From Sphingosinicella soli (GTDB taxonomy: Bacteria > Pseudomonadota > Alphaproteobacteria > Sphingomonadales > Sphingomonadaceae): 64,000 bases of DNA. Below are positions 2,995 through 60,663 of the stretch, in pieces. Each line of letters begins with the position of its first letter. The first letter of the stretch is position 1. The stretch spans positions 1 to 64,000 of the forward strand of contig NZ_JACHNZ010000015.1 in assembly GCF_014199685.1 (NCBI RefSeq), read 5' to 3'. Made by a program: the position numbers and the translations under genes. The notes beneath the pieces were generated by a model. It was given only the letters and a program-made list of their open reading frames with translations. It had not been told where the DNA came from and ran no database searches.

Positions 2995-3350
2995 GACGTG
3001 ACCCCCGTTTTTTTCCTTCAGTTGGAGCTAGAGTGCGACCCTGCAGAGGGGACGGACAGACGAAGCGGAAGCAGTTTTCGGAAGAGCAGATCATCGGCTA
3101 GAATTACGCTTGGTCATAAGCGGTCAGCCTCCAAAGGTTGTATCGACAACTTCACTTTAGAGACCTGCTGGCCGATCATGACTGCCTTGATGAAGTCGGC
3201 GGGCGGCTAAGCACCCTTGTCTCCATCAAGGCAATGTGGCCCTTCAATAGGCCGCTTCCCAATGTGCTATGGCAGCGAATTTACGGGCCGGCTCGTCGAT
3301 CTATGGGCCTACCATCATGGCGTCCGGATCCACCACCAATACCCAGCGCT
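2995..3350 (+). pseudogene. Decayed IS3-family (IS407-like) element
   Basis: Several pieces of one IS type survive in order. A GTGACCCCCGTTTT stretch near 2997-3012 looks like an IS end. The frame at 3060-3101 reads KRKQFSEEQIIG then a stop, which is the start of an IS3-family OrfA with its ATG changed to ACG. The frame at about 3265-3330 reads YGSEFTGRLVDLWAYHHGV, the OrfB region around the second catalytic Asp, with the usual DNGSEF changed to YGSEF. The middle is not readable in one frame. The element is dead and truncated. Nothing else is seen in this gene-free stretch. Confidence 0.65.
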
Positions 3351-3360
3351 TCAGAGCCGA

Positions 3361-4986
3361 TCAGCGGCGCAGCGCACGGCGCAGTATCTTGCCGGTGGGC
3401 GTTTTCGGCAGGTCGGGAAGAATCTCGACCTGCCTGGGATATTTATAGGCCGCCATGCGCGCCTTGCTGTAGCTGATGATCTGTTCAGCATCGACATCGC
3501 TACCAGGTTTGAGGCTGACGAAGGCTTTAACCGTCTCGCCGCGATAAGCGTCGGCGATGCCCACCACCGCCGCTTCGCGAACGGCAGTATGCCCGTAGAG
3601 GACATCCTCCACCTCACGCGGCCAGACTTTGTAGCCCGAACTGATGATCACGTCCTTCTTGCGATCAATGAGATAATACCAGCCGTCGCCATCGTAAAAG
3701 GCCATGTCGCCGGTTATGAAACCATCTTCGCCCATCGCGGTGCTGGTTTCGGCGGGATTGCGCCAATAACCTTTCGCCACCATCGGGCCTTCGATCATCA
3801 GTTCGCCGACCTCTCCCGGTGGCAGGCGCCTGCCGTCCTCGCCGACGACATGCGCCGAGACGCCGGGCCCGACCTTGCCAATCGACAATATCCCATCGTC
3901 GCTGACCCGCGCACGTTCGCCGAACGGTGTGATGTGCGTGGCTGAGGAGGTTTCGGTAAGACCATAGCAATTGTGAATATAATGACCGAACTTCGCCTCG
4001 AACTGCTCTACGAAGGCGGGTGGCACTGGAGCCCCCCCGGAAAATAGCTTGCCCAGCTTCGCCAGTCCCTCGCGGGTAGCGGCGGGGTGATTGTAGAGAG
4101 CGATGAAGGCAGTGATCGCCGCGACCACAAACCGTGGCTGCCAGCGTGCGATCACATCGAGCACGACGCCCGGTTCGAAGCGGAACGTCAGGATCAGCGG
4201 CGCGGCGAGCCTCAAGGCAGCGCCAAGGCACGCGACAGCTCCGGTAATATGGAAGAGCGGCGCGATGCCCAGAACCGCATCGCCATCCTGCAATGCGGCC
4301 GTGGTGCAAAATGCGCCGGCATTGAAACCGAACGCGCCGTGTGAAATCATCGCGCCCTTGGGCAGGCCGGTGGTACCCGACGTATAGACGATCATGGCCA
4401 GATCATCGGGACGAGGACGCGGTACGGCGGGCCGAGGGACATCGCGGCCTTCGAGCAGGGCGTCGAAGCGGGTCACATCGGACGCGGGCGCGGCGATGCC
4501 GGCAAAGATCCGAGGATCGTCGCCGGTCTGGAACTCGAGCGCCGATATCTTCAGCTGGATAGCCGGCACGAGCGCGGCGTCGACATTGACGATCACATCG
4601 TCGAACAGCTCTTGCATCGCCAGCAACGCCGCCGGCGTCGAGTCCGCGAAGATCAGGCTGACCTCGCGCGAGAGGTTCATTGGATTGATGGGCACGCAGA
4701 TACCGCCTGCCTTCCAGGCGGCGATCATACCGATCACGAAGTGCGGCGAATTCTGCAGGAACAGCGCCAACCTGTCGCCGGGGGCAAAGCCGCGTTCGAT
4801 CAGCAAGGACGCCAGCGCGTCGCTCATCCGGTCAAGTTCGGCATAGCTGATGGCCGTGTCGAGGTAGATGATTGCCGGCCCATCCCCGGCGCGCGCCAAC
4901 GCGGCGTCATAGATGTCGAGAATAGCCTCCACGGGTCCCGCATCGCGCATCGTGTCCGGGCGGTCGCTGGCCACGGGCGGAATCAT
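3361..4986 (-). CDS. Acyl-CoA ligase (AMP-forming)
   Basis: The 541-residue protein belongs to the ANL adenylation superfamily, which activates a carboxylic acid through an acyl-AMP and loads it onto CoA. Visible motifs are the P-loop MIVYTSGTTGLPKGAM, the A5-type YGLTETSS, the hinge DRKKDVIISSGYKVWPREVE, and the C-terminal PKTPTGKILRR with its catalytic lysine. It overlaps the 5717-4983 hydrolase gene by four bases (ATGA), so the two form an operon. A LacI-type operator lies in front of that operon. The substrate is unknown; the context suggests an organic acid from the degradation pathway rather than a housekeeping fatty acid. Confidence 0.88.
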   Translation of the reverse strand: MIPPVASDRPDTMRDAGPVEAILDIYDAALARAGDGPAIIYLDTAISYAELDRMSDALASLLIERGFAPGDRLALFLQNSPHFVIGMIAAWKAGGICVPINPMNLSREVSLIFADSTPAALLAMQELFDDVIVNVDAALVPAIQLKISALEFQTGDDPRIFAGIAAPASDVTRFDALLEGRDVPRPAVPRPRPDDLAMIVYTSGTTGLPKGAMISHGAFGFNAGAFCTTAALQDGDAVLGIAPLFHITGAVACLGAALRLAAPLILTFRFEPGVVLDVIARWQPRFVVAAITAFIALYNHPAATREGLAKLGKLFSGGAPVPPAFVEQFEAKFGHYIHNCYGLTETSSATHITPFGERARVSDDGILSIGKVGPGVSAHVVGEDGRRLPPGEVGELMIEGPMVAKGYWRNPAETSTAMGEDGFITGDMAFYDGDGWYYLIDRKKDVIISSGYKVWPREVEDVLYGHTAVREAAVVGIADAYRGETVKAFVSLKPGSDVDAEQIISYSKARMAAYKYPRQVEILPDLPKTPTGKILRRALRR

Positions 4987-5717
4987 TTGGAGGAGCCGAG
5001 CACTTCGGCGAACAGTTCGAGCATCGCCGCCCAGGATCGACGGTCCGCGTCCGGATGATAGCCGATGCCTGGATTGTTGCTGGCGAAAGGATTGGCGAAG
5101 GAATGCTTTGCCCCGCTATAGAGGATGATCTGGCAGTCGGCGTCCGCCTCCCGCATTTCCTGCTGGAATGCGACGACGTCCTCGATCGGCACGAGCGGAT
5201 CCTCGCTGCCCGTGCAGACGAGCAGCTTCGCCATGATGCCGCCGGCGGCGGCAGGAAGGCTGGTCTTCAGCAAGCCATGGAAGCTGACGATGCCGAGGCA
5301 AGGGGCGCCGGCACGCGCCATCTCGAGAACGGTCATTCCTCCGAAGCAATAACCGATCGCGAGAAGCTTTGAGGCGTCGACCTGCGGCAGGGCCGCCAGC
5401 GCGTCCAGGGCGGCACGCGCGCGATCGCGCAACAATTCTGGATCGACGCGGAATCTGTCAACCTGCTGCTGCGCCTGGCTAATGTCGGCCGGCCGCTGGC
5501 CGTCTCCATAGATATCCGCGCACAGAGCGACATAGCCGAGCCCGGCCAGCGTTTGCGCGCGCATCTTCACATTGTCGGCGATGCCCCAGGCATCATGGAC
5601 GATGAGGATGCCCGGTCGCGGCCCGTCCACCGTCTCGTCGAACGCCAGCAGGCCGGTAAACGGCTCGTCCAGGCATGTATAAGACAATGGCTGCAGCCGC
5701 AGCGCTTTGTGATCCAT
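4983..5717 (-). CDS. Dienelactone hydrolase family protein
   Basis: This alpha/beta hydrolase of 244 residues has the dienelactone hydrolase triad: Cys124 in GYCFGG, Asp173 in SEDPLVP, and His205 in GAKHSF. The family hydrolyses lactones and related esters, using Cys as nucleophile. It lies upstream of and overlaps the acyl-CoA ligase gene, which suggests hydrolysis of a lactone or ester whose acid is then activated with CoA. The promoter region between 5718 and 5845 carries a GAAGCGCTTC palindrome. Its true substrate is unknown. Confidence 0.85.
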   Translation of the reverse strand: MDHKALRLQPLSYTCLDEPFTGLLAFDETVDGPRPGILIVHDAWGIADNVKMRAQTLAGLGYVALCADIYGDGQRPADISQAQQQVDRFRVDPELLRDRARAALDALAALPQVDASKLLAIGYCFGGMTVLEMARAGAPCLGIVSFHGLLKTSLPAAAGGIMAKLLVCTGSEDPLVPIEDVVAFQQEMREADADCQIILYSGAKHSFANPFASNNPGIGYHPDADRRSWAAMLELFAEVLGSSK

Positions 5718-5780
5718 CGCTCATCCCCACTCTCTATTCCGGCCGAGAGTCATTCCACGTTGCGGTCAAATCCACGGTAC

Positions 5781-5793
5781 CGAAGCGCTTCAT
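5781..5793. promoter_or_regulatory. LacI-type operator (distant site)
   Basis: The sequence CGAAGCGCTTCAT contains the 10-bp perfect palindrome GAAGCGCTTC. It lies 64-76 bases upstream of the hydrolase-ligase operon and matches the operator family found repeatedly at 40-64 kb near the LacI gene. It is about 34 kb from the next copy. Confidence 0.6.
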
Positions 5794-5845
5794 TTTCGAA
5801 ATCGAGCAATCTTTCCCGTGTGGAAAGCCGACATATGCCCGGCAG

Positions 5846-7075
5846 CTATACGTCGGGCCCCGTCCAATGTTCGAGCAGCGTCGGCGCGACATCGGCCAGA
5901 ATATGCTGATCGACGAAAATATGCTGGGTGGCAACATGCATGTCCTGCATGCACCGCCCCAACGCAGTTGGCTTGCGGATCGACGCCGAGCCACCCCACA
6001 GATGGCAGAAGTCGACGATGCCGACCGCCATGTTATGCGACCAGGCCGTCGCCTGGCGAAGCCGCTGCCGCACCTCAGCCGGCACCGGCTGGCCGCTCTC
6101 CGCAAGGCGCTCGGCGTCGTCGAACGCCTTGAGGACATAGGCCCGCATGGCCTGATAATTGGCCTCCTGCACCGAAAATCCATGCCGGAAGATTGGCGAT
6201 TCCGAAATCAGGGACGACGATGCCACGCGCTTCTTGGACGTCGAGATCAGCGCGATTTCCTGCAGCGCGCGACGAGCGATACCCAGCGCTATTGCAGAAT
6301 GTCCGGCACATCCAAATGCTTGCAGGCCGAGATCGAACATCGCACCGCCGCGCTGCGGCGTTAGCTCGGCGCGTTCCATCGTGAAGGCTTCGGGCACGAA
6401 CTGGTCGGAGATTTCGTAATCGAAGCTGCCGGTACCCGATAGGCCCGTCACATTCCAGTTGCCAGTGAAGACGACCTTGTCGCGCGGCACGAAGCAGATC
6501 CGGACTTGCGGGGCGCCGTTCGGCAGGAGCTTGTTCGCGCCATCCTCCATAAGGAACATGCCGCCACCCATCCAGTTCGCATGGCCACATCCGCTGCCGA
6601 AGCTGTATTTCCCTGAACCACGATAACCGCCGTTGACCGCCTCGGCCTTTCCGCCGGGGCCGAACATGCCTGCCAAGATCGGGCGTTCGCTCCCGCCGAA
6701 TATCTCATGCGCGGCATCATCGCCGACAAAGGCGCCGGCCACCGCCGTGGCCAACTTATTGGCCATCAGCGACCAGCCGCTTGATCCGTCGGCGAAGGCG
6801 ACCTCTTCCATGATCTCGATAGCAGTGATGAGACGGCAGCCATGGCCGCCCACCTCGACCGGTACGACAGCCCAAAACAATTCGGTGTCACGCATCGCCG
6901 CGATGGACGCCGGCGATAATGTATTGCCCTGCTCGGTGTTGAGCGCCTCGGCCCTTATCAGGGGCGCGATCTGTCGCGCACGTGCTATCCACCCCTCGTG
7001 CGAAATGTTCGTCGTCTGCGGTGAAACCGGTGTGTGGGGAGGCGTTTTGACCGATGAAGCCATTGCGCTGCTCAT
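5846..7075 (-). CDS. HsaA-like flavin-dependent monooxygenase (module A)
   Basis: The 409-residue protein has the acyl-CoA dehydrogenase fold but resembles group D flavin monooxygenases (HsaA, hydroxyphenylacetate hydroxylase C2, DszC), which use reduced flavin from a separate reductase to hydroxylate aromatic or related rings. Supporting segments are FADGSSGWSLMAN near residue 95, a YSFGSGC-HANW block, GTGSFDYEI, and a C-terminal LGRCMQDMHVATQH segment. A close paralogue lies at 60884-62092. No flavin reductase gene is visible in the window. A second start at 7063 is possible. Its promoter region is shared with the divergent E1 operon. Confidence 0.78.
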   Translation of the reverse strand: MSSAMASSVKTPPHTPVSPQTTNISHEGWIARARQIAPLIRAEALNTEQGNTLSPASIAAMRDTELFWAVVPVEVGGHGCRLITAIEIMEEVAFADGSSGWSLMANKLATAVAGAFVGDDAAHEIFGGSERPILAGMFGPGGKAEAVNGGYRGSGKYSFGSGCGHANWMGGGMFLMEDGANKLLPNGAPQVRICFVPRDKVVFTGNWNVTGLSGTGSFDYEISDQFVPEAFTMERAELTPQRGGAMFDLGLQAFGCAGHSAIALGIARRALQEIALISTSKKRVASSSLISESPIFRHGFSVQEANYQAMRAYVLKAFDDAERLAESGQPVPAEVRQRLRQATAWSHNMAVGIVDFCHLWGGSASIRKPTALGRCMQDMHVATQHIFVDQHILADVAPTLLEHWTGPDV

Positions 7076-7484
7076 AATTGTTCATCCCAAATCCCTGCTG
7101 AGCAGCAGGCGAATCCAAATTATCGGTCGAAGACCTCGTCCTCCAATACAATTTGGACGGCCCGATGATGCTCCTTTGGTATCAATTACCTGCTTAGCCT
7201 ACAGCAATGGCACTAGGCCAAGGCCGAAGGGATGGCCGGCCGGCGAGTGGACTAATATACGTATACTCCACTACATATGTACGGTACCCGATGAATGCCC
7301 TACCGATTTTAGCGAATTTCGGGAGATTGATATGATAACGGCATCGCGCAGCCGTTAGAATTATATTGGACCGTGACGCTAGGCAGTGCGAAATTCGTGG
7401 TTGGTAATGGGGCCGGCGCGCGCCGGTCGCGTATTGGATCTCTGCGCGCTATTGGACGGCAAAAGTCGCAATTAAGGAGAGGTG
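7076..7484. promoter_or_regulatory. Divergent promoter region with conserved two-block element
   Basis: This 409-base gap separates divergent transcripts and contains no gene. Bases 7140-7152 (CCTCCAATACAAT) and 7178-7183 (GGTATC), 25 bases apart, recur with identical spacing at 37438-37450 and 37476-37481. The second block sits in GGTATCAATTACC, an imperfect inverted repeat. A TATACGTATA-like palindrome lies near 7257. The element probably drives or controls the minus-strand HsaA-like gene, the plus-strand E1 operon, or both. Confidence 0.5.
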
Positions 7485-12660: not shown

Positions 12661-13554
12661 TCACGCCTGTCGTTTCTCTACTTCCCGACGGGTATGGCCG
12701 ATGAAATTGGACACCGCCGACGAACTGCGTTCACCCTGCCAGACCAACATCAGTTCGACCGGGTGGGACATGCCTTCGATCGTGCGAACGACGACATCTC
12801 CGGAACCGGCCGCCTTTGGGATGATCGCGAGGCCCATGCCTGCCGCAACCAGGCTGATCATCGCTTCAAGACTGGTCAGCCCCTGATGCCAGATTTTTGG
12901 GATGAAACCGATGGCCGCACATGCGCTCATGATCGCGTCGCTGTGCGACCGGAAGGCAATGGTGTCGGCCCACAGAAACGGCTCGTTCCGTATGTCGTCG
13001 ACATAGATTTTCGGCTTGTTCGCCAACGGGTGGTCCGGACTTAGCGCAACCCCCAAATCGTCGTCGGCCAGCTTGATATGCTGCAGGCCGGCCATCGGCT
13101 GCTCCCAGCCATAGGCGAAGCCGAGATCGAGATCGTTGATGATCAGCGCCTCGAACTGATTTTGTGAGGATGATGAAATGAACCGGAAATGGACATTGGG
13201 AAATTCGGTACGAAAGCTCCTGAAGGCGGACTTGACCACCGGATAATGGTGCGCAGCATCGTGGAAGCCGACCCGCAGCGTCCCCATCTGGCCGCTTTCG
13301 ACCGCGATCGCCCGGCTGCGCGCTTGATCGGACAGCCGCAATATCTGGCGCGCGTCCTCCAGATAGGATATGCCCGCCGGAGAAAGCGCGATGCCGCGCG
13401 GCAGACGCACGAACAACGTTGTGCCGAGCTCCTCCTCGAGCAGCCTTATCTGGCGGGACAGGGCGGGCTGCGCGATGTGAAGGCGTGCCGATGCGCGGTG
13501 GATATTTTCCTCCTCCGCTACAGCCACGAAGTATCGCAAGCGTCGCAAATTCAT
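12661..13554 (-). CDS. LysR-family transcriptional regulator
   Basis: The 297-residue protein starts MNLRRLRYFVAVAEEENIHRAS with a winged helix-turn-helix (AQPALSRQIRLLEEELGTTLF) followed by a periplasmic-binding-like effector domain (LRVGFHDAAHH onward). The start is the ATG at 13554; an upstream extension lacks family similarity. The gene faces the module A operon tail-to-tail, and an IS630-type element sits about 120 bases upstream. It may control module A in response to a pathway acid or CoA ester. No operator was identified. Confidence 0.88.
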   Translation of the reverse strand: MNLRRLRYFVAVAEEENIHRASARLHIAQPALSRQIRLLEEELGTTLFVRLPRGIALSPAGISYLEDARQILRLSDQARSRAIAVESGQMGTLRVGFHDAAHHYPVVKSAFRSFRTEFPNVHFRFISSSSQNQFEALIINDLDLGFAYGWEQPMAGLQHIKLADDDLGVALSPDHPLANKPKIYVDDIRNEPFLWADTIAFRSHSDAIMSACAAIGFIPKIWHQGLTSLEAMISLVAAGMGLAIIPKAAGSGDVVVRTIEGMSHPVELMLVWQGERSSSAVSNFIGHTRREVEKRQA

Positions 13555-13676
13555 TTTTATAGTTCCGACGGTAAATGAGCATGACTTCGACACGCATACG
13601 CGGGATGCCACAGGATTGTCTCGATGAATCGGCTTCCCGTCAAGCGATGCTTCCGCGCAGCATCCGGCCAGATCTA

Positions 13677-14713
13677 GAGCGTCGGGCCTGAAATCTGAAT
13701 CGTGGGGATTCCCGTGAGCTAAGATTTATGATTCAGCTTTATTGGAGGTGGATTATGGGCAAGAGCAGTTCGGTTGATCTTCGGGTTCGGATTATCGGCG
13801 AGATTGAGCGGCCAATCGTGCCGTGCGGCGGCGCTGCGGTTTTGGGGTGCGCCGAGCACGGCGATCCGGATTGCGCAGCGCAAGGCGCAGACGTGGTCGC
13901 TGGCTCCTGCGCGGCAGGGCCGCCCTGCGGAGAGCGGTCTGCTTGCGGCCCATGTTGATGCGCTTGTGGGCTGGGTGGAAGCCGATGGCGACATCACTAT
14001 GCCGGAACTGGCAGCGCGGCTGCTGGCGGAGCGCGGGTGAAGGCGCACCCAGCCTCGCTGTCACGGTTGCTGATCCGGCACGGCTTACAGTCAAAAAAAA
14101 TGAACACTGCTGGCGAGCGAAACCGATCGCGGTGACATCGTCCGGAGGCGTCGGATATGGACAGTTCACCGCCAGCCGTGGATGAAGAAACGCCCGCAGC
14201 GGCCGGTGTTCATCGACGAGACCGGCACAACCACCAAGATGACCCGGCTGCCGGGGGGCGGGCACGCCGGGGGCAGCGGCTCAAGATGAAGGTGCCCTTC
14301 GGCCACTGCGGCCCCCAGACCTTTATTGCCGCCCTGCGTCATGACGCCTTGACCGCACCCTGGGTGATCGACCGCCCGATGAACCGCCAGATATTCGAAA
14401 CCTATGTCGAGACCCAGCTCGCTCCGACGCTGAAGCCCGGCGACATCGTCATCCTCGACAACCTCTCCAGCCACAGAAGCGAAAAAGCGGCCGCCAACCT
14501 CAAAGAGCGCGGCGCATGGTTCCTATTCCTGCCGCCCTACAGCCCAGATCTCAATCCCATCAAAATGGCCTTCGCCAAGCTCAAAGCGCACCTGCGAAAG
14601 GCCAATGCCCTGTGGCAGGTCATCGGATCGATCTGCGAACTCTACTCGCCAGACGAATGCTGGAATTACCTCAAACACGCCGGATACTTTTGCAGATTAA
14701 TGGCTAAATGCTC
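13677..14713 (+). mobile_element. IS630-family element, decayed
   Basis: The element is bounded by GAGC...GCTC ends, each next to a TA dinucleotide (13675-13676 and 14714-14715), as expected for IS630-type insertion at TA. The ends share GAGC followed, five bases on, by GCC. Inside is a frame-shifted transposase. The element sits between the LysR gene and the TonB receptor promoter. The end assignment rests on short matches and is tentative. Confidence 0.6.
13755..14700 (+). pseudogene. IS630-type DDE transposase, frame-shifted
   Basis: The parts of an IS630-like transposase are spread over several frames. MGKSSSVDLRVRIIGEIE starts at 13755. The helix-turn-helix region (GAPSTAIRIAQRKAQTW) and AHVDALVGWVEADGDITMPE follow in another frame. 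VKAHPASLSRLLIRHGLQS continues from 14037. [17 protein letters not shown] marks the first catalytic Asp, and [16 protein letters not shown] with [20 protein letters not shown] carries the rest of the DDE site. In the last motif the usual NPIE is NPIK, so a catalytic Glu is lost as well. It is clearly inactive. Confidence 0.85.
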
Positions 14714-14740
14714 TAGCCAGTCACGTTCATCACCAACTGA

Positions 14741-14772
14741 TATCAATTCGGCATCAAAAAGGCATATCAATT
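14741..14772 (+). repeat. Paired TATCAATT repeats upstream of TonB receptor
   Basis: The octamer TATCAATT occurs at 14741-14748 and 14765-14772, starts 24 bases apart, about 90-120 bases before the receptor start. The same octamer lies in the 7178-7190 inverted repeat of the divergent promoter region. This may be an operator pair; the match is short. Confidence 0.35.
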
Positions 14773-14861
14773 ATATTTGACGGTTGCTGTGCCGGATAGC
14801 AGACAGAAAACCAACCCGCGCTACAACGCTGGCAAATAGAAAATACATCGGGGAGAGGAAC

Positions 14862-22588: not shown

Positions 22589-22681
22589 GCCCTTCACATC
22601 GGTTATCGGCCGCCACCTTTTATTATATTGGTTGCGCAGCCGGTGTTTCCCTATCCTGCACCAGAAAGAGGGGAGAGAGAT

Positions 22682-23590
22682 TTGCGGCTTCTGATCAATC
22701 CGTTCCGGACGGAGGCATGGTATGGCGAAAAGCTGCTACCGGTCCTTGACCTCATCCAGATCGCCGATCGCAAGGGTATCTATGGCGTGGACCTGCCCGA
22801 GCATGTTGTGATGGGCACCCGCGACCTCGACGATTATCCCTATGCGCCAAGCGCCAAGGCGCGCGATGCGATGTTCACCGCCCGCACCGATTTTCCCGAA
22901 CCGATCGTGCTGCTGTCGGTGATCGGCGCGATGACGAAAAATCTGCGCCTGTCGACAGGCGTGCTGCTCGCCGCGCTGCGGCCCGCGGCGCTCCTCGCCA
23001 AGCAACTGGCGACGCTCGACGTACTCACCAACGGTCGTGTCGAGATGTCGATCGGCACCGGCTGGCAGAAGATCGAATATGATGCCGAGGGCATACCCTG
23101 GGAAGGCCGCTTCGGCCGCCTGTTCGAAACCGCTGAGGCCTGCCGCGTGCTGTGGACCCAGGCGCCCGCGAGTTTCCAGGGCAAGCATGTCGCCTTCGAC
23201 GACATCTATTGCATGCCCTTTCCGGTCCAGCCCGGCGGGCCGCCGCTGATGTTCGGCCTCGCCCCGTCGGATCTCAACATTGAGCGCATGGCGAAATGGG
23301 CCGATGGCTGGACGCCGCTGGGCATGCCGCCGGCGGCCGTCGGCCAGGCGCTCGACCGCATCAAGCGCCGCATGGAGGAGCTCGGTCGGGATCCGACCAA
23401 ATTCCGCCTGCGCCTCAACCCCGATCCGGTGATCCGCGACGGCAGACTCGACGTCGACGCGACCCTCGCCGGCATTCCGGACCTGGCCAAGATCGGCTGC
23501 ACCGACGTGTCGGTGTTCATCTCGGCCTTCTGCAGCGGGCCCGACGATTTCGAGCCTTTCCTCGACAAATATCTCGCTTATGGCGAGTAG
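22682..23590 (+). CDS. LLM-class F420-dependent oxidoreductase
   Basis: The 302-residue protein is a luciferase-like TIM barrel of the type found in F420-dependent families such as Rv2161c. It shows LSTGVLLAALRPAALLAKQ, LDVLTNGRVEMSIGTGWQKIEYDAEGI, and GGPPLMFGL. The start is probably the TTG at 22682 after an AGGGGAG site; a TTG 18 codons upstream lacks one. It is the only clear F420-family consumer in the window, between the two F420 biosynthesis loci, and is probably the reason the cofactor genes are carried. FMN use cannot be excluded. Confidence 0.85.
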   Translation: MRLLINPFRTEAWYGEKLLPVLDLIQIADRKGIYGVDLPEHVVMGTRDLDDYPYAPSAKARDAMFTARTDFPEPIVLLSVIGAMTKNLRLSTGVLLAALRPAALLAKQLATLDVLTNGRVEMSIGTGWQKIEYDAEGIPWEGRFGRLFETAEACRVLWTQAPASFQGKHVAFDDIYCMPFPVQPGGPPLMFGLAPSDLNIERMAKWADGWTPLGMPPAAVGQALDRIKRRMEELGRDPTKFRLRLNPDPVIRDGRLDVDATLAGIPDLAKIGCTDVSVFISAFCSGPDDFEPFLDKYLAYGE

Positions 23591-33455: not shown

Positions 33456-34097
33456 TCAGATGCCGGTAATTTGGATCCCGCCTCCATCGATCTGATAGGT
33501 TTTGTTGAGGAAGATTAGAACCGACGTCATCGCCTCGGCTGCGGCCGAATTGACCAAGGCGCCGCCGTGCAGCCCGCGAAGGCCCATCTCGGTGGCGAGC
33601 GCCACGACCTTCTCCCGTGCTTCCTTGTCGTCCCCAAACACCAATACGTCGCATTGGATCTCGGCGTTGGTGATGAGCTTGTGGGCCGCGACATTGTGAA
33701 ACGCTGATACGACCGTTACCTGATCACCGAGCAATGTCTGCGCCCGCACCGCGGCGCTGCCTTCGGGCGGTAACTGAACGCGCATCACTTTGGGCGGCAT
33801 CAACGGCACTGTCGTGTCGACGACGATCTTGCCGACGACATCCGCCGCGATCTCGGCGAGCGTATCCTTCTGCGCCGCGAAAGGTACTGCTACAATCACG
33901 ATCTCCGCGGCGGCGGCGGCATCGCGATTAGTGCGGCCCGCTAGCCCGAGGCCTAGCTTCGAAGCCATCTGCTCGGCGGCTTCCGCCGACCTTGAGCCAA
34001 TGATGACCTCACGCCCAGCTTTTGCAAGGCGTCCGGCGATCGCTGCGCCGAGCTTTCCAGTGCCGCCCACGATGGCGATGATTTCGCGCTTTTCCAA
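33456..34097 (-). CDS. fno: NADPH:F420 reductase (Fno)
   Basis: The 213-residue protein moves hydride between NADPH and coenzyme F420. The dinucleotide-binding motif AIVGGTGKLGAAIAGRLAKAG is followed by VIIGSRSAEAA, whose Ser-Arg suits the NADP phosphate. VIVAVPF, VSAFHNVAAHKL and the C-terminal VNSAAAEAMTSVLIFLNK are as in archaeal and actinobacterial Fno. I chose TTG at 34097, 11 bases after the fbiC stop, because it gives the usual family length. It completes an F420 synthesis-and-reduction unit with fbiC. Confidence 0.88.
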   Translation of the reverse strand: MEKREIIAIVGGTGKLGAAIAGRLAKAGREVIIGSRSAEAAEQMASKLGLGLAGRTNRDAAAAAEIVIVAVPFAAQKDTLAEIAADVVGKIVVDTTVPLMPPKVMRVQLPPEGSAAVRAQTLLGDQVTVVSAFHNVAAHKLITNAEIQCDVLVFGDDKEAREKVVALATEMGLRGLHGGALVNSAAAEAMTSVLIFLNKTYQIDGGGIQITGI

Positions 34098-34107
34098 TGA
34101 ACTTTTC

Positions 34108-36459
34108 CTATCGTGAACTGTGCATGGCGAAGGTCGGCGAGGCTGCGCCTCGATTGACGCGACCATATGATGTCGTTCGCTGGTGGGCTATCCGTCCGGC
34201 CAATAGCGCGACCTCAGTCATCCAGGTGGGATCGCACTCCTGACCGTTCACGCCGCCCGCAGCGCGAGTGATCGACTCGTTCATCAAAGTGCCGCCCATG
34301 TCGTTGGCACCAGCTTGCAATCCCGCGATAACGCCCTCGCGGCCGAGCTTAACCCAGCTGACCTGGATGTTCGGTATGAGCGGATGCAACACGAGTCGCG
34401 CGACGGCATGCATCAGTAACGTTTCGCGTGCGCTGGGCCCAGATCGGGCCAGACCCTTTTGCCATATCGGAGTGTTCATGTGCACGAAGGGCAACGGCAC
34501 GAATTCGGTGAAACCGCCGGTTTCCTGCTGGAGATCGCGGATGGCGAGCAGATGGCGGGCCCAATGCGCATAGCTGTCGACATGGCCAAACATAATTGTG
34601 GCAGTCGAACGCAGGCCTATACAATGCGCGGTTCGCATCACCTCGAGCCATTCCGCGACGCTCAGCTTGTCCGGACAGACGATGGCTCGGACATCATCGT
34701 CGAGGATTTCGGCTGCCGTACCCGGTAGGGTCGAAAGCCCTGCCTGTTTCGCGCGGTTGAGAAAGTCTTCCAGGGGTATGCCGAGCGTCCTCGCGCCGTG
34801 GCTTATCTCCAGCGGCGAAAAGGCATGGATATGTATGTCGGGCGCCACACCTCGGACGGCGCGCAGTACGTCGATATAGGTGTTGCCGTCATAGCTCGGA
34901 TGGATCCCGCCCTGAAGGCAGATTTCGGTCGCACCTTTTTCCACCGCTTCTGTGACGCGCCGCGCCACTTCATCGAGATCGAGCCGATAGGCAGTGCCGC
35001 GCTGGCTGCGCGTGCTTCCCTTCGAAAAGCCGCAGAAGCCGCACTTGTATACGCAGATATTGGTATAGTTGATGTTCCGGTTGACGACGAAGGTCACGTC
35101 GTCGCCGACCACCGATCGGCGCAACTCGTCTGCCGCCCCCGCGATTAGCGAGACATCGGCGCCCTCGGCTTCGAACAGCCTGACGATCGCTGGGACCGTC
35201 AGCCGCTCGCCGGCGCGTGCCGCCGCGACGATATCCTTGAGCAGCTTCGTCGCGATCGTCCGGCCCGAAGGTAACGGCACCGCCATCGGCACTGCGTTCC
35301 CCGGGTGCCATACATCGGTTACCGGCAGGCCCCGCCCATCGATGGTTCGCCGGACGACCGATCGCAATGAGGGGTCGAGCCACCGATCGGGCTCAACAGC
35401 ATGACGCGGACCAATCGCCAGCCGCTCGCGGAGGACGCGTCCCGCCGCCAATGTGGCGCGGTCGAGCGTCTCTAGGTTCGGCCAGGGGGCCTCGGGATTG
35501 ACATGATCCGGCGTTACCGGGGAGACGCCGCCCCAGTCGTTCACCCCGGCGCGCAATATGGCTGCCAGTTCATCGGGCGCGCGAAGATTGGGCGGCGCCT
35601 GTATCGTCATTTCCGGGCCCAGCACCAACCGCGCCATCGCGATCGTCCAGAGATGCTCGGCGAGGGACGGTTCGGGATGCTGCGCCATCCGCGTACCGCT
35701 CTTGGCACGGAAGTTCTGGACAATGACTTCCTGAATGTGCCCGTAGCGCGCATGGAGATCGCGGATCGCGATCAGCGCCTCGATCCGCTCGAGCCGGGTT
35801 TCGCCGATCCCGATCAGCAGCCCGGTGGTGAACGGAACTGCGGCTCGTCCGGCTGCAGCAATGGCCTCCATCCGCCGCGCGGGTTCTTTATCGGGAGATC
35901 CGAAATGCGGGCCGCCAGGGTGCGACAATCGGTCGGAAGCCGTTTCCAGCATCAGTCCCATCGATGCCGATACCGGACGCAGCGCCGCATAATCGGCATC
36001 GCCGATCAACCCGGCGTTGAGGTGCGGTAGCAACCCGGTCTCGGCGAGCACCTCGCCGGCGATCTCGCGAAGATAGGACAGCGTGCTCAGATGTCCCAGC
36101 GCGTCCAGTGCCGCCCGCGCTGCCGCGTAGCGGTCCTCCGGCCGGTCGCCGAGAGTGAACAGCGCCTCGCGGCAGCCGGCCGCCTGGCCCGCCCGCGCGA
36201 TCGCCAGAACTTCTTCCCGCGTCAGAAAGCTCTTTGCGTTGCGGCGCGGCGTGGTTGCGAAGGTGCAATAGTGGCAGACGTTCCGGCATAGCTGGGTTAG
36301 CGGTACGAATATCTTCCGCGAATAGGTCACCAGCGGGCCATGCGCCTCGATGGTCATTGCTTCGCTGACGCTCAGCAACTCTGCAAGAGGAATCGCCGCC
36401 GTCGTCTCGGCGAGCTCCACCGCTTCAAGCGACGCCAGTTCACCGCCGAATAGCTTCAT
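34108..36459 (-). CDS. fbiC: Fused CofG-CofH (FbiC) Fo synthase
   Basis: The 783-residue protein makes the deazaflavin Fo from tyrosine and a ribityl-diaminouracil. It has two radical-SAM domains: a CofG-like half with C58, C62 and C65 in CRNVCHYC, and a CofH-like half with C469, C473 and C476 in CVYKCGFC. The order and length match FbiC of actinobacteria rather than separate archaeal genes. It is followed by fno. CofE, CofD and CofC lie 31 kb away, so the pathway is split over two loci in one window. The gene looks intact. Confidence 0.95.
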   Translation of the reverse strand: MKLFGGELASLEAVELAETTAAIPLAELLSVSEAMTIEAHGPLVTYSRKIFVPLTQLCRNVCHYCTFATTPRRNAKSFLTREEVLAIARAGQAAGCREALFTLGDRPEDRYAAARAALDALGHLSTLSYLREIAGEVLAETGLLPHLNAGLIGDADYAALRPVSASMGLMLETASDRLSHPGGPHFGSPDKEPARRMEAIAAAGRAAVPFTTGLLIGIGETRLERIEALIAIRDLHARYGHIQEVIVQNFRAKSGTRMAQHPEPSLAEHLWTIAMARLVLGPEMTIQAPPNLRAPDELAAILRAGVNDWGGVSPVTPDHVNPEAPWPNLETLDRATLAAGRVLRERLAIGPRHAVEPDRWLDPSLRSVVRRTIDGRGLPVTDVWHPGNAVPMAVPLPSGRTIATKLLKDIVAAARAGERLTVPAIVRLFEAEGADVSLIAGAADELRRSVVGDDVTFVVNRNINYTNICVYKCGFCGFSKGSTRSQRGTAYRLDLDEVARRVTEAVEKGATEICLQGGIHPSYDGNTYIDVLRAVRGVAPDIHIHAFSPLEISHGARTLGIPLEDFLNRAKQAGLSTLPGTAAEILDDDVRAIVCPDKLSVAEWLEVMRTAHCIGLRSTATIMFGHVDSYAHWARHLLAIRDLQQETGGFTEFVPLPFVHMNTPIWQKGLARSGPSARETLLMHAVARLVLHPLIPNIQVSWVKLGREGVIAGLQAGANDMGGTLMNESITRAAGGVNGQECDPTWMTEVALLAGRIAHQRTTSYGRVNRGAASPTFAMHSSR

Positions 36460-37619: not shown

Positions 37620-38789
37620 TCAGATGAGTTCGGTTAAAGTTTCCATGCGATAGGGTTTGAGCTCGGCTAACTGGCCATCGCGCACCTTGTTCGCGAAATC
37701 GGGATTGGCAATGAGCGCCCGCCCGACGGCAATCAGGTCGAAATCGCCGCGATTGAACATGTGCATCAACTTCGCGAACTGCTCCGCCGAGGCGGATGAT
37801 CCGGTGCGGGCCGCGCCGTCCTGGCCATATGCATGATGCGATGTGACGTCCAACGCATCGCTCAAACCGACCGAACCGACGGTGATCGCCGTTTTGCCGG
37901 TGATCTTCTTCGTCCATCCCGCCAGATTCATATCGGAACCCGATTGGGGAAACTCTGCCTCCCAGAAACGCCTGGTGGAACAGTCGAAGAAGCTCAGCCC
38001 TGCATCCGAGAGCGGCGTAAGCAGGGTTTCCAACTCGGCAGGCGTCTCGGCGAGGCGGGTGTCATAGAAATCGGGTGATTTCCATTGCGAAAAGCGCAGC
38101 CCGATCGGGAAGTCCGGGCCGACGTTGTCGCGGATGGCCTTGATCAGGTCGATACCGAAGCGCGCACGCTCGGCGAGATTTTGACCACCGAATCCGTCGG
38201 TGCGTTTGTTCGTTTCGTTCCACAGGAACTGATCGATCAGATAGCCGTGACCGCCGTGGAGCTCCACGCCATCGAAGCCGAGGCGTTGGGCGGAAAGAGC
38301 CGCAGCGACATATTGGTCGATCGTTTCGCCGATTTCCGCTTCGCTCAGCGCGCGAAAGGGCGGGGCAGGCTGTCCGGAGACATCTCCGACGGTAGGATGA
38401 ACCATCGACGGACCAACGGACGGCAGGTCCTGATCGGCGCTCTGATTGCGAATTCTCGCTAGGCCCGCATGCCATAGCTGTGGCATCATCCGGCCTCCGG
38501 CCGCATGGACCGCGTCGATGATCGTCTTCCACTTGGAAAGCGCGGCATCGCCATAAAAATGCGGCACCGCAGCGGAATAGGCACCGATTCCGTTGATCGC
38601 CGCGCCTTCGGAGATGATCAACCCGACGCCGCCTTCGACGCGTCGCCGATAATAATCGACGACGCGGTCTTCGAGGACCCCGTCCTTGGCGAACATCCGT
38701 GTCATGGCCGACATGACGATACGGTTAGGCAGTTCGCAAGTGCCCAGTCGATAGGGCTGGAAAAGCGGCGCAGCGATATCCGGCATCAT
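37620..38789 (-). CDS. Old yellow enzyme family oxidoreductase (module B)
   Basis: The 389-residue FMN enzyme begins LFQPYRLGTCELPNRIVMSAMTRM and has ELHGGHGYLIDQFLWNETNK in the active site, using a His/His pair rather than the His/Asn of the 21476 OYE. It also has TDGFGGQNLAERARFG and AVGRALIANPDF. It is closer to the xenobiotic reductase and 2,4-dienoyl reductase-like branch without an iron-sulfur domain. It would reduce an enone or enal of the pathway. It lies four bases after the Rieske stop, so it is probably co-transcribed. Confidence 0.88.
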   Translation of the reverse strand: MMPDIAAPLFQPYRLGTCELPNRIVMSAMTRMFAKDGVLEDRVVDYYRRRVEGGVGLIISEGAAINGIGAYSAAVPHFYGDAALSKWKTIIDAVHAAGGRMMPQLWHAGLARIRNQSADQDLPSVGPSMVHPTVGDVSGQPAPPFRALSEAEIGETIDQYVAAALSAQRLGFDGVELHGGHGYLIDQFLWNETNKRTDGFGGQNLAERARFGIDLIKAIRDNVGPDFPIGLRFSQWKSPDFYDTRLAETPAELETLLTPLSDAGLSFFDCSTRRFWEAEFPQSGSDMNLAGWTKKITGKTAITVGSVGLSDALDVTSHHAYGQDGAARTGSSASAEQFAKLMHMFNRGDFDLIAVGRALIANPDFANKVRDGQLAELKPYRMETLTELI

Positions 38790-38793
38790 GCCC

Positions 38794-40122
38794 TCACGCC
38801 TTTAGCATGTCGTAAAGGTGACTGTGAAAGTTGGTCAGCGTCGCTTCCGCGAGCGGGTTGGGACGGCCACCCTTGAAATAGTCGGACTTCATGCCCTTCT
38901 GCACGTCGGGCAGGTTGATGAAGTCCTGTGTGTAGATACGCGGCCACGGGCCGTCCTGCCACTTTTCGTAAATCTCCTGCTTCGCCTTGGGCTCCTTGCC
39001 TGGGGCGAAAGACTCGATCGACCAGATATCAAGGACGCAGGTATCCGGATCGTCGCTGTCGGGGCGTGCGCGATACATCAATAGGCCGTCATGGGTAGCG
39101 AGCAGGGAGATGTTCGGGAAAATGTGCCAGGCTGCCCCGATCATATTGATGTCGTCGAAGTTCAGATCGGGCCATGCGACGCCATCGGCTTCGGCCAGCT
39201 CGCGATGGATCTCGATATAGGTGACCATCGCCTCCATGATTGTCGCCGACTCGGTGAGCTTTTCCTTCATCCTCCGGGCCGCCTCCACCGCGCGCTTGGT
39301 GACTAGTGCGTCCAGCTCGACATTGAGCTGCTCGAGATTGCCTAGAAGCGCTTCACGCATGTCGGTCGGCGCTGCCATCTTCAGCCGCGGCGACGGGTGA
39401 CCCGGCAGGCGATCCGCAGAGCGGAAGCGGAATAGCGAATGGGGGCCGAAGGATTCGCACAAGAATCGATCGTCGCCCGAATAGTTGAGCGTCTGCCGGT
39501 GCGTGGTCGTGGCGTGATAGCCTTCGATGAAGGCTTCGAGGGCGACCTTCCAATTGCAGGGAAGCGATACCGTCCGATACCATCCATAGCGAAAATTCTC
39601 GAGATCATGCTTGCGGAAAACATCGGGCAGTGGGCCGAGCCATTCGAGAAGCGGCTTTGCGTCCGGATCCATATTGATGAAAAGCCAACCGCCCCAACTG
39701 TCGATCTGCACCTCGCCGAGGCGCAGATTTTCGTCGTTGAGGATGGTGCCCCAATCCGCGCGATCGACCACTTCATCGTTGGTTCCGTCGAGATTCCATT
39801 GCCAGCCATGATAGCGGCAGAAAAACTTTTTGGTCCGGCCGCAACCGTTGGTCAGGCGCCGTCCACGATGCAGACAGACATTGTAATAGGCCTTGATATT
39901 GTCTTCGGCGCTGCGGACGACGATGATGGACTCATCGGCGATATTGTAGGTCAGATAGTCGCCAACGCGGCTAAGCTCTTCCTCGCGGCCGACGATCTGC
40001 CAGACCTTGCCCCACATATGCTTGCGCTCGCGCTTTGCGAATTCGCGGCTGAGATAGGCTTCCTTGGGCAGGAAGGATTCGCTAGGCAGCGGCGTGATGT
40101 GATCCTGACGGAGAGTGGCCAT
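38794..40122 (-). CDS. Rieske non-heme iron oxygenase alpha subunit (module B)
   Basis: The 442-residue oxygenase is a paralogue of 9850-11238. Its Rieske ligands are C83, H85, C102 and H105 (CLHRG and CRYHGW), and its mononuclear iron ligands are probably E200, H203 and H208 (IEGYHATTTH). The real start is ATG 40122 (MATLRQDHITP); the longer open frame upstream has no similarity. A LacI-type operator lies at 40227, about 105 bases before the start. No ferredoxin or reductase gene accompanies it. Confidence 0.88.
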   Translation of the reverse strand: MATLRQDHITPLPSESFLPKEAYLSREFAKRERKHMWGKVWQIVGREEELSRVGDYLTYNIADESIIVVRSAEDNIKAYYNVCLHRGRRLTNGCGRTKKFFCRYHGWQWNLDGTNDEVVDRADWGTILNDENLRLGEVQIDSWGGWLFINMDPDAKPLLEWLGPLPDVFRKHDLENFRYGWYRTVSLPCNWKVALEAFIEGYHATTTHRQTLNYSGDDRFLCESFGPHSLFRFRSADRLPGHPSPRLKMAAPTDMREALLGNLEQLNVELDALVTKRAVEAARRMKEKLTESATIMEAMVTYIEIHRELAEADGVAWPDLNFDDINMIGAAWHIFPNISLLATHDGLLMYRARPDSDDPDTCVLDIWSIESFAPGKEPKAKQEIYEKWQDGPWPRIYTQDFINLPDVQKGMKSDYFKGGRPNPLAEATLTNFHSHLYDMLKA

Positions 40123-40226
40123 CTCTATATCCTCATATCTTCCACAAGTGGGTCGTAGCGGCAAGCGTCGTGCTCTTTGGGAGCAAAGTGCCTTCCAGTC
40201 CTTGGAAACCAAGTTTGCGCGAAACT

Positions 40227-40238
40227 TGAATCGCTTCA
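40227..40238. promoter_or_regulatory. LacI-type operator (Rieske, module B)
   Basis: TGAATCGCTTCA reads TGAAGCGATTCA on the other strand, identical to the site beside the LacI gene at 54927. It is extended to an inverted CTTGAA...TTCAAG arrangement. It lies between the flavoprotein stop and the Rieske start. Confidence 0.65.
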
Positions 40239-40244
40239 AGAGCA

Positions 40245-46878: not shown

Positions 46879-48594
46879 ATGACCCATAAGCTGGTTGGAC
46901 CGGCGCGTATCGCCGCCGGGGCATTTGACTTCATTATCGTGGGGGCAGGGTCGGCAGGCTGCGTGCTCGCAAATAGGTTGTCGGCTTCCGGTAAATATTC
47001 AGTTCTGCTGCTCGAGGCCGGCGGGGAAGACTCATCGCCCTGGATCCGCATTCCTCTCGGCTACGGAAAATTGTTCGATCATGCGACGCTGAACTGGCGT
47101 TACCAGACGACACCACAATCCTTCCTGGCCGACCGCAAGGTGCCCCAGCCGCGGGGCAAGGTGCTTGGCGGCTCGAGCTCGATTAACGGCCTGGTCTACG
47201 TACGCGGCCAGCGCGAAGATTACGATTCCTGGCGGGATTTGGGTGGAGAGGGATGGGGATGGGACGATGTCCTTCCCTATTTCCGTAAGAGCGAACGGCA
47301 GGTGCGTGGCGCCGATGCGCTGCATGGCGCGGACGGCCCCATCCCGGTTTCAGACGCAACGGAGCCACACGAGCTGTGCGATGCTTTTATCGGGGCGACG
47401 ACGAGCCTGGGTTATCCCGAGAATGAGGATTTCAATGGTCCCAGCCAGGAAGGCGTCGGCTATTATCAGATGACGGCAGAGCGAGGCCGGAGGGTCAGCG
47501 CCGCCGCCGGATATCTGCGTCCGGCAAGAGGTCGGCGAAACCTGCAAGTCATCGTCAAGGCGCATGTCACCAGAGTCGTGGCCGAAGCTGGCCGCGCGGT
47601 CGCGGTCGAATGGCACAAGGGCGGCCGGGATTATTCGGCCACGGCCAATGGCGAGATCATTCTGTCGGCCGGCGCGATCAATACCCCACAGATCATGCAG
47701 CTGTCGGGATTTGGGCCACTCGAACTGCTCAAATCGCTCGGAATCCCGGTACTAGCCGACCGGAAGGAAATCGGGGAAAATCTTCAGGATCACTTCCAGG
47801 TCCGCAATGTACTCAAGTCCTCGAAGCGGTTCACCCTAAACGACGACATGAGCAATATCGTCAGAATGGCGGGGATCAGTCTTCGCTATCTGCTGTTGTC
47901 GAAAGGGCCGCTGACCGTCAGCGCGGGATATGCTGGCGCATTTCTGAAGAGCCTTCCCTCGCTCCCAACGCCCGACATCCAGCTTTTGTGCATCAACTTC
48001 AGCACGGATCGGATGGGCAACAGCTTGCACGACTTCTCCGGTTTCACGATCAGCGCTTCCCAGTTGCGGCCCGAGAGCCGCGGTTCGGTAAAGGCGACGA
48101 GCGCCGATCCTTTTGCGGCACCGGCGATCGACCCGAATTTCCTGGCGGCAGACGAAGACATGCAGGTGATGGTAAGGGGCTTCAAGCTCATTCGCCAGAT
48201 CACCGGCGCCCGGCCATTGAGCAACTTCATCGTGGACGAGGTGTCGCCGGGGCGGAGCGTGTCCGATGATGCCAGCATAGCCGAGTATATTCGCGCCACG
48301 GGCGGGTCGCTGTACCATTCATGCGGCACGATGCGAATGGGTGCCGACGTGAATTCGGTGGTCGACTCGCGGCTGCGCGTTCGCGGCATAGACCGGCTGA
48401 GAGTGGTCGACGGCTCGATCATGCCGCACGTCGTATCGGGCAACACCCATGCCGCCATCGTGATGATCGGTGAAAAGGGCGCAGACATGATTTTGGAGGA
48501 CGCGGCGCGCGGATATGATGGGGCAGTCGGCGTGCAGGGCGTCGCATCGGCACTCGCCCCGCTCGGCGAACTGCAGTCTTCTGCCCATAAGTGA
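46879..48594 (+). CDS. GMC-family FAD oxidoreductase
   Basis: The 571-residue flavoprotein belongs to the glucose-methanol-choline family, which oxidises alcohols to aldehydes or ketones. FDFIIVGAGSAGCVLANRLS lies near residue 16, and RGKVLGGSSSINGLVYVRG is the second signature. The catalytic pair is His480 in HSCGTMRMG and His524 in SGNTHA. It is the first gene of a plus-strand operon that continues with two SDRs and a crotonase. A LacI-type operator overlaps its likely promoter. The alcohol substrate is unknown. Confidence 0.9.
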   Translation: MTHKLVGPARIAAGAFDFIIVGAGSAGCVLANRLSASGKYSVLLLEAGGEDSSPWIRIPLGYGKLFDHATLNWRYQTTPQSFLADRKVPQPRGKVLGGSSSINGLVYVRGQREDYDSWRDLGGEGWGWDDVLPYFRKSERQVRGADALHGADGPIPVSDATEPHELCDAFIGATTSLGYPENEDFNGPSQEGVGYYQMTAERGRRVSAAAGYLRPARGRRNLQVIVKAHVTRVVAEAGRAVAVEWHKGGRDYSATANGEIILSAGAINTPQIMQLSGFGPLELLKSLGIPVLADRKEIGENLQDHFQVRNVLKSSKRFTLNDDMSNIVRMAGISLRYLLLSKGPLTVSAGYAGAFLKSLPSLPTPDIQLLCINFSTDRMGNSLHDFSGFTISASQLRPESRGSVKATSADPFAAPAIDPNFLAADEDMQVMVRGFKLIRQITGARPLSNFIVDEVSPGRSVSDDASIAEYIRATGGSLYHSCGTMRMGADVNSVVDSRLRVRGIDRLRVVDGSIMPHVVSGNTHAAIVMIGEKGADMILEDAARGYDGAVGVQGVASALAPLGELQSSAHK

Positions 48595-51316: not shown

Positions 51317-51330
51317 ATGAAGCGCTTCAT
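51317..51330. promoter_or_regulatory. LacI-type operator (amidohydrolase)
   Basis: ATGAAGCGCTTCAT is a perfect 14-bp palindrome and the strongest member of the operator set. It lies 102-115 bases before the amidohydrolase ATG at 51432. Confidence 0.75.
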
Positions 51331-51431: not shown

Positions 51432-52625
51432 ATGGCCACGCAGGTCGCGGAATTGAGTGCCCAGGAAGCATCGCGGGCCGACCCTCTCTTCGGCAAGATG
51501 CTCGACATCGACGGCCACATCTACCTTCCGGTCGAGGTCTATGAAGACCTCACCAAAGGAATGGGTCCAAATCCCTCTCTCGATTTCTACAAACGGCATT
51601 TGCAGTCGGACGAGTATAAGGACGGCCTCGCCCGCAACAAGACGGATATCTTCGGTGTCAAGGGCATGGCGGCGCTCGGCGCTACCGATGTCGAGGGCCG
51701 ACTCGAGGCGCTCGACCTTATGGGAGTCAAGGCTCAGCTCGCCTTCTCGCAGGCGATCGGTAACGAGATGCGCGTCAATTCGCATGTAGCGCGTGCCACC
51801 AACCGTGGCATCAATGACTATTATCTACAGTGGGCGAAGGGGGCCAGCGGCCGTGTGTGGCCGGCGATCAACCTCAATATGACTGAAGTCGACTGGGCGA
51901 TAGAAGAACTCGATCGCGTCCTCAAGATCGGCAACGTCGGCGGCATCAACATGCCATGCGCAGCTCCTCCCGGCGGCACCTCGCCGGCCCATTCGCAGTG
52001 GGATCCCTTCTGGGCCCGGCTCGAGGAAGCCAATGTGCCGGCGCTGATCCACCTAGGTGGTGGCGGACTCATCTCGCAGCCCGATCCGGACCCGATGTTC
52101 CCCGAGCGGGCGTGGGGCAATGCGGAATCGCTGAAAGGTGCGCCCGCTGAACGCGGCGGCGGCGAAGAGGCGATCAGCCCCTATTTCCTTCTGGTCGCGC
52201 ATATGCCGGCCGAACTTTATCTGCAGACGATGGTGATGGGCCGCGTGTTCGAGCGCTTCCCCAACCTGCGTTTCGGCGTGCTCGAATTCGGCACGACCTG
52301 GCTCGGCGAGTGCGCGCGCCGCATGGACCAGTGGGCGGATTTCCAGGTTCGCGTTGTCGGCCGGCACTTCGACATGAAGCCAAGCGAATATCTGCGCAAG
52401 AATGTCCGCGTCGGGCCGTTTTTCCACGAACCTCTCGCCGATATGATCAATCATTACGGCATGAAAGAGCTCTATTGCTACAACACCGACTTCCCGCATC
52501 TGGAAGGGAGTAAGGATCCAATCCGCAAGTTCCGCCAGCGCTTGGCGAGCCTGCCCGAAGATTATGCGCAGGACTTCTTCGTCGATAACGGCCGCTGGCT
52601 GATGCCGTACGTCGACGCCGCCTGA
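51432..52625 (+). CDS. Amidohydrolase-2 family protein
   Basis: The 397-residue TIM-barrel protein is of the kind that includes ACMSD-like decarboxylases and C-C hydrolases. MLDIDGHIYLP replaces the usual HxH with DGH, VPALIHLGGGG and FLLVAHMPAEL give barrel histidines, RFPNLRFGVLEFG is the family hallmark, and YNTDFPHLEG carries the catalytic Asp. The start follows AGGAGAAATCGTC. It is a single-gene unit with its own operator. A decarboxylation or ring-fission hydrolysis role is inferred only from the family. Confidence 0.83.
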   Translation: MATQVAELSAQEASRADPLFGKMLDIDGHIYLPVEVYEDLTKGMGPNPSLDFYKRHLQSDEYKDGLARNKTDIFGVKGMAALGATDVEGRLEALDLMGVKAQLAFSQAIGNEMRVNSHVARATNRGINDYYLQWAKGASGRVWPAINLNMTEVDWAIEELDRVLKIGNVGGINMPCAAPPGGTSPAHSQWDPFWARLEEANVPALIHLGGGGLISQPDPDPMFPERAWGNAESLKGAPAERGGGEEAISPYFLLVAHMPAELYLQTMVMGRVFERFPNLRFGVLEFGTTWLGECARRMDQWADFQVRVVGRHFDMKPSEYLRKNVRVGPFFHEPLADMINHYGMKELYCYNTDFPHLEGSKDPIRKFRQRLASLPEDYAQDFFVDNGRWLMPYVDAA

Positions 52626-54938: not shown

Positions 54939-55049
54939 TACTTGACCTCGGAGGGTGGCCGCTGCACAGGAAATCAACGACAGCCCGCAACCCATAGCGG
55001 GACCGTCACGCCCGTCATTCGACCAGGGCTGGATGAGAGCCGAGGGCTA

Positions 55050-60649: not shown

Positions 60650-60663
60650 ATGAAGCGCTTCAT
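60650..60663. promoter_or_regulatory. LacI-type operator (upstream copy, HsaA-like gene)
   Basis: ATGAAGCGCTTCAT is a perfect 14-bp palindrome, identical to 51317-51330. It lies 12 bases after the ACAD stop and about 220 bases upstream of the HsaA-like start. Confidence 0.72.

Follow-up and report, generated by a model that had tools for sequence, protein, structure and literature searches.

The palindrome GAAGCGCTTC that precedes a hydrolase-ligase gene pair in Sphingosinicella soli is probably an outlying operator, of low affinity, for the LacI-family regulator encoded at 53778-54833, a reading to which, from sequence comparisons, we assign a probability of about 0.6. The original prediction had placed this pair in the LacI regulon. 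The part of that claim concerning the regulon stands: computation firmly supports the existence of a LacI regulon that uses this motif, the genome appears to have a single LacI, and a chance intergenic copy of the motif is unlikely. The membership of the pair is less secure, as the site ranks last in its set and no promoter-like sequence was found beside it. Hereafter, the window denotes the whole stretch of 64,000 nucleotides that was analysed.

The site and its neighbouring genes

5780-5793, no strand: the reported site, CCGAAGCGCTTCAT, in which the core is perfect, the flank CAT is good and the flank CC is poor, with a position weight matrix (PWM) score of 18.6 bits
4983-5717, minus strand: DLH-family hydrolase (Pfam DLH, 1.1e-44)
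3361-4986, minus strand: AMP-forming acyl-CoA ligase, with 4 bases shared between its start and the hydrolase stop
5846-7075, minus strand: ACAD-fold gene, flavin monooxygenase-like (HsaA-like, under that model's cut-off), ending 128 bases upstream of the hydrolase

By inspection, GAAGCGCTTC is a perfect palindrome at 5782-5791. The slightly longer CGAAGCGCTTCAT spans 5781-5793, just where the original prediction had put it, and it lies the predicted 64-76 bases before the next minus-strand start codon, an ATG ending at 5717. The core itself is 65-74 bases ahead of the hydrolase start. More than 75% of LacI-family sites fall within 30-140 bases of a start codon, according to PMC4052901, and this spacing therefore counts in favor of the operator reading. 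The site has two features expected of an operator of this LacI: its core follows the palindrome GAAKCGMTTC with a central CG, and it is intergenic, 30-140 bases ahead of a start codon, in the 128-base gap that separates the two minus-strand genes 5846-7075 and 4983-5717. It departs from the accepted sites in its flanks. The pattern WTGAA..TTCAW (A/T and then T outside both halves) is present on one side only, the other side being CC. Thus the right half is a complete match, whereas the left half has C at the outer flank base, where A or T stands in all 24 accepted half-sites, and C again at the inner flank base, where C occurs in 1/24 accepted half-sites and T in 23/24.

No sigma-70-like promoter was detected in a scan of 5600-5900, around the reported site. 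We also considered whether the palindrome might be a terminator and rejected this reading: it has no loop, and the two terminator-like stems from the scan (one per strand, at the same place) fall inside the hydrolase gene. A second candidate palindrome, TTTCGAAA, occupies 5794-5801, its centre 11 bases from that of the reported site.

In the hydrolase, C124, D173 and H205 occupy the positions of a Cys-Asp-His triad. Its nearest solved relatives are the DLH-family structures 7jiz, 8vb3, 7jka (m3DLH), 4zi5 (P91) and 9n2w (E 1.3e-56 to 1e-53), whereas 1din, the entry for dienelactone hydrolase, matches far more weakly (2.9e-05). With relatives of the 7jiz/4zi5 type nearest and 1din so distant, lactone hydrolysis is no more than a putative activity of this enzyme. 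The gene at 5846-7075, missing from the original prediction, is on the same strand as the hydrolase and ends just 128 bases upstream of it, and the pair could therefore be transcribed from an upstream promoter. An IS3-like transposase remnant suspected at 3061-3345 was discarded, as two overlapping ORFs there gave no Pfam match.

A single LacI-family regulator and its operators

The regulator and the operator-like sites are listed below. The sites have no strand, and scores are leave-one-out unless stated otherwise.

53778-54833, minus strand: LacI-family regulator, the sole LacI-family gene found in the genome, with recognition helix VSLGSASR
40226-40239: operator ahead of the Rieske gene 38794-40122 (minus strand) and the OYE gene 37620-38789 (minus strand), 22.3 bits
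46789-46802: operator ahead of the GMC oxidoreductase gene 46879-48594, 25.0 bits; the LacI-GMC pairing is kept in another genus
51317-51330: perfect operator ahead of the amidohydrolase gene 51432-52625, 25.7 bits
53703-53716: operator ahead of the enoyl-CoA hydratase-family gene 52865-53653 (minus strand), 23.3 bits
54926-54939: operator between the divergent lacI and ligase 54942-56681, 22.7 bits
60650-60663: perfect operator ahead of the ACAD-type monooxygenase-like gene 60884-62092, 24.7 bits
60847-60860: another operator-like site for the same gene, of lower score (18.6 bits) and 23 bases from its start at 60884; outside the training set

The product of 53778-54833 combines a LacI HTH with a periplasmic-binding-protein-like domain, and a Pfam LacI search of the home genome returned this gene only. 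A further operator, ATGAATCGCTTCAA, lies past the window at contig position 65959, about 38 bases before an APH-fold gene that is followed by an SDR gene; thus, the regulon reaches beyond the window. The sites at 60650 and 60847 are 197 bases apart and possibly form a two-operator loop. The TTG start of the ligase at 54942 is probably too early, 55092 being likelier by the codon model.

We built a symmetric matrix from seven home sites (40226, 46789, 51317, 53703, 54926, 60650 and 65959) and five ortholog sites, keeping the reported site out of training and scoring accepted sites leave-one-out. The reported site, at 18.6 bits, falls below all 12 accepted operators (22.3-32.3 bits), a comparison that is partly circular for the seven home operators, which were picked partly for their intergenic position, and free of this for the five ortholog sites. 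The 60847 site also scores 18.6 bits, and beyond these two the next match on the contig scores 12.0. The score of the reported site is low because its left flank is CC, and flank and score together lead us to expect weaker LacI binding there. The nearest operator-grade site is that at 40226, at a distance of 34.4 kb, in agreement with the 34 kb first proposed. An exact core also occurs at 39345, within the coding sequence of the Rieske gene.

The motif can be linked to its regulator through relatives. LacI relatives at E<=1e-55 were found in 4 of 396 other genomes of the family, and three of these, all from one genus, are 49-52% identical and have an identical recognition helix, VSLGSASR. Perfect copies of TGAAGCGCTTCA number 2, 2 and 1 in these three genomes; all five sit 4-7 kb from the LacI gene and adjoin an ortholog of the GMC gene (54-59% identical to 46879-48594). 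When one mismatch is allowed, TGAAGCGCTTCA occurs 16, 11 and 13 times, versus 5, 4 and 1 for a reversed control. Such comparisons provide good evidence that the motif belongs to the LacI encoded at 53778-54833. In the fourth genome, where the LacI relative is 34% identical and has a different helix, no such site was found in the 20 kb fetched around the LacI gene; two perfect copies of TGAAGCGCTTCA lie elsewhere, away from the LacI stretch.

Outside the family, two plasmid LacI relatives, from Acidovorax and Comamonadaceae (betaproteobacterial), are about 45% identical and have the same recognition helix and a GMC gene alongside. Copies of TGAAGCGCTTCA with at most one mismatch are absent from the 17 kb fetched per plasmid, and these two nulls count against wide conservation of the motif, though the promoters may lie beyond the fetched stretch. 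A LacI relative on a Bradyrhizobium plasmid (42%) has a different helix, no annotated GMC neighbor and no such site, and a scan of genome contigs for LacI brought up 35 relatives, none exceeding 38% identity. The nearness of LacI to a GMC oxidoreductase gene (46879-48594; 53778-54833) is thus seen again in a second genus of the family as well as on the two betaproteobacterial plasmids. This recurring pairing suggests an old, non-sugar LacI-GMC partnership.

The best-scoring named LacI-family model for 53778-54833 is the HTH-type regulator GntR (NCBIfam NF052440), at 229 bits, far under that model's cut-off of 400 bits. In PMC4052901, LacI-family local regulators resemble the S. soli system in their even palindromes with a central CG, in sites mostly 30-140 bases upstream and in the position of LacI beside its targets. 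The AglR motif given there, nnntcAAAGCGCTTTgannn, has the AAGCGCTT centre in common with the S. soli motif and differs in having AAAGCGCTTT versus GAAGCGCTTC here. In that survey, 176 of the 182 groups with assigned pathways belong to carbohydrate metabolism, whereas the S. soli cluster encodes Rieske, GMC, acyl-CoA and enoyl-CoA enzymes. The cluster that LacI appears to control here is catabolic but not for sugars, an uncommon situation in this family by the same survey. A literature search on the pathway yielded no matching paper, and the six papers listed as containing the 12-mer were unrelated, as judged by their titles.

Could the palindrome be a site for a regulator of another family? 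The exclusion described above covered further LacI-family genes only, and the second candidate palindrome, TTTCGAAA, is centred 11 bases off. Against this, the same core precedes the LacI cluster genes here and adjoins LacI orthologs elsewhere, and we consider the idea very improbable.

Rarity of the core in intergenic DNA

The exact core occurs 32 times in the 3.76 Mb home genome, versus 26 times for the reversed control. The 10-mer taken alone is weak evidence; it is the intergenic location that makes the reported copy unusual. All 26 off-contig copies are coding, while on the contig four of six are intergenic (5782, 51319, 53705 and 60652) and two are coding (39345 and 68405). Three of the four intergenic copies lie in the LacI cluster and the fourth is the reported site, the only intergenic exact copy found outside that cluster by gene calls from a codon-usage model. 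Looser searches gave similar results. Off-contig sites with at most two mismatches to ATGAAGCGCTTCAT are coding in 37 of 37 cases, as are all seven off-contig matches to the pattern GAAKCGMTTCWW; on the contig, 7 of 9 distinct matches to GAAKCGMTTCWW are intergenic, the reported site among them. The coding calls were made with the codon-usage model on stretches of 2.4-5 kb, in which a few ORFs had low scores (14.6-25.5). Of 23,359 14-mers sampled as a control from these 57 loci, 1,489 were judged intergenic, a fraction that is not representative of the genome because the loci were picked around sites.

In simulated intergenic DNA, sites scoring at least as high as the reported one arose 0.83-1.0 times per Mb, so that about 0.005-0.006 are expected by chance in the window's 6,421 annotated intergenic bases. 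For the exact core with any flank, the expectation is 2.1-2.4 per Mb of intergenic DNA, or about 0.014 in the window. When applied to coding DNA, the chance model predicted 3.6 exact cores per Mb, and 28 were counted in roughly 3.4 Mb. Because the model under-predicts coding cores about 2.3-fold, we widened the chance figure to 0.006-0.015, which left the odds unaltered.

These figures bear on the simplest alternative, that the core arose here by coincidence and LacI does not act on the palindrome. Several observations are in keeping with such a coincidence: the site has the worst flank of the set, it scores under all accepted operators, and the core is common in coding DNA, where the chance model errs low. 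Yet the expectation in the intergenic DNA of the window is only about 0.006-0.015, and of the 12 perfect 10-base palindromes among 6,144 intergenic 10-mers, four are this very core. On balance, coincidence seems unlikely to us, if well short of negligible.

Conservation of the pair in relatives

No close ortholog of the hydrolase-ligase pair emerged at E<=1e-70 from 396 other genomes of the family, and a search of 395 more from the order at E<=1e-65 yielded a single 52% homolog, both sets being samples from larger groups. The locus of the 52% homolog has no operator before the homolog, and none of 12 examined loci has an operator before the DLH homolog (homologs there are 39-51% identical). 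An E1-E2 gene set lies near the 52% homolog and is found in none of the 11 remaining loci; seen in one locus, this association is treated here as a lead. Among the plasmid matches listed, the hydrolase reached 48% identity at best, the ligase 51% and the monooxygenase-like gene upstream of them 46%. Stretches of 40-60 kb surrounding the three LacI orthologs contain no hydrolase ortholog and, in one genome, one ligase relative of about 28% identity, which places the pair outside the conserved core of the regulon. On this side, then, the proposed membership of the pair did not gain support: no examined relative has the pair together with an operator, and the neighborhoods of the LacI orthologs are without a hydrolase ortholog.

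Relationship between modules A and B

Modules A and B contain paralogs of E1-alpha (60% identical), E1-beta (53%), Rieske (47%) and ACAD-type monooxygenase (47%) proteins. Module B owns a ligase, 54942-56681, with its own operator and 25% identity to the 3361-4986 ligase. The earlier statement that CoA activation by the pair belongs to module B is, as worded, unsupported. In contrast to the ligase, a search of the home genome at E<=0.001 revealed no second DLH-family gene on the contig. Since the modules are paralogous and no second DLH gene was found, the hydrolase is a more plausible shared part than the ligase, and a functional site would make better sense as a way to share the hydrolase. 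One hydrolase might then serve both modules: E1, Rieske, monooxygenase and CoA ligase genes are present in module B, the search showed no DLH gene there, and the gain of one operator would let the module B repressor draw on the copy in module A, at a distance of 48 kb. We offer this scenario with considerable doubt, and any role for the pair in the module B pathway is speculative.

Several features of module A were also observed. A LysR gene is located at 12661-13611, and a DDE_3 transposase gene (Pfam) at 14157-14780, inside the module, is a sign of a mosaic region. The divergent promoter region at 7076-7481 contains the palindromes TATACGTATA (7256) and TACATATGTA (7272), 16 bases apart, which are possible sites of a module A regulator. 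F420-type genes lie in and around the module, at 653-2966, 22628-23590, 33456-34166 and 34108-36459, and comprise cofE, cofD, cofC, a radical-SAM gene with a CofH domain, an F420-oxidoreductase-like gene and a luciferase-like monooxygenase gene. The F420 ligase is present in 55 of 397 family genomes, S. soli included, with two copies in the S. soli genome.

The reported site could also be vestigial or minor. The block may derive from a LacI-controlled ancestor or from a rearrangement, with the pair now transcribed mostly from the promoter ahead of 5846-7075, which would answer to module A control (perhaps through LysR 12661-13611), and LacI having little effect or doing no more than slowing read-through. 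Such a history would be consistent with the 47-60% identity of paralogs shared by the two modules, the same-strand gene 128 bases upstream, the failure to find promoter-like sequence beside the site, and the presence of the LysR and transposase genes. However, module A contains no other operator-like sequence: its other entries among the contig's 25 best matrix matches are all coding and score below 10 bits. We regard a vestigial site as distinctly unlikely.

Discussion

Our preferred reading remains that of a low-affinity operator, and most likely LacI would weakly repress the hydrolase-ligase pair through this site. In the proposed mechanism, LacI would occupy the site when no inducer is present and hinder transcription of the pair; with the module B inducer, LacI would release, and expression of the pair would rise along with that of module B. 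Operator-type control of this sort is ordinary gene regulation. The combination of a single LacI-family repressor, a compact set of sites and a low intergenic background makes S. soli a clean test of how poor a working operator may be, and the case is also suited to watching a regulon extend into a neighboring paralogous pathway.
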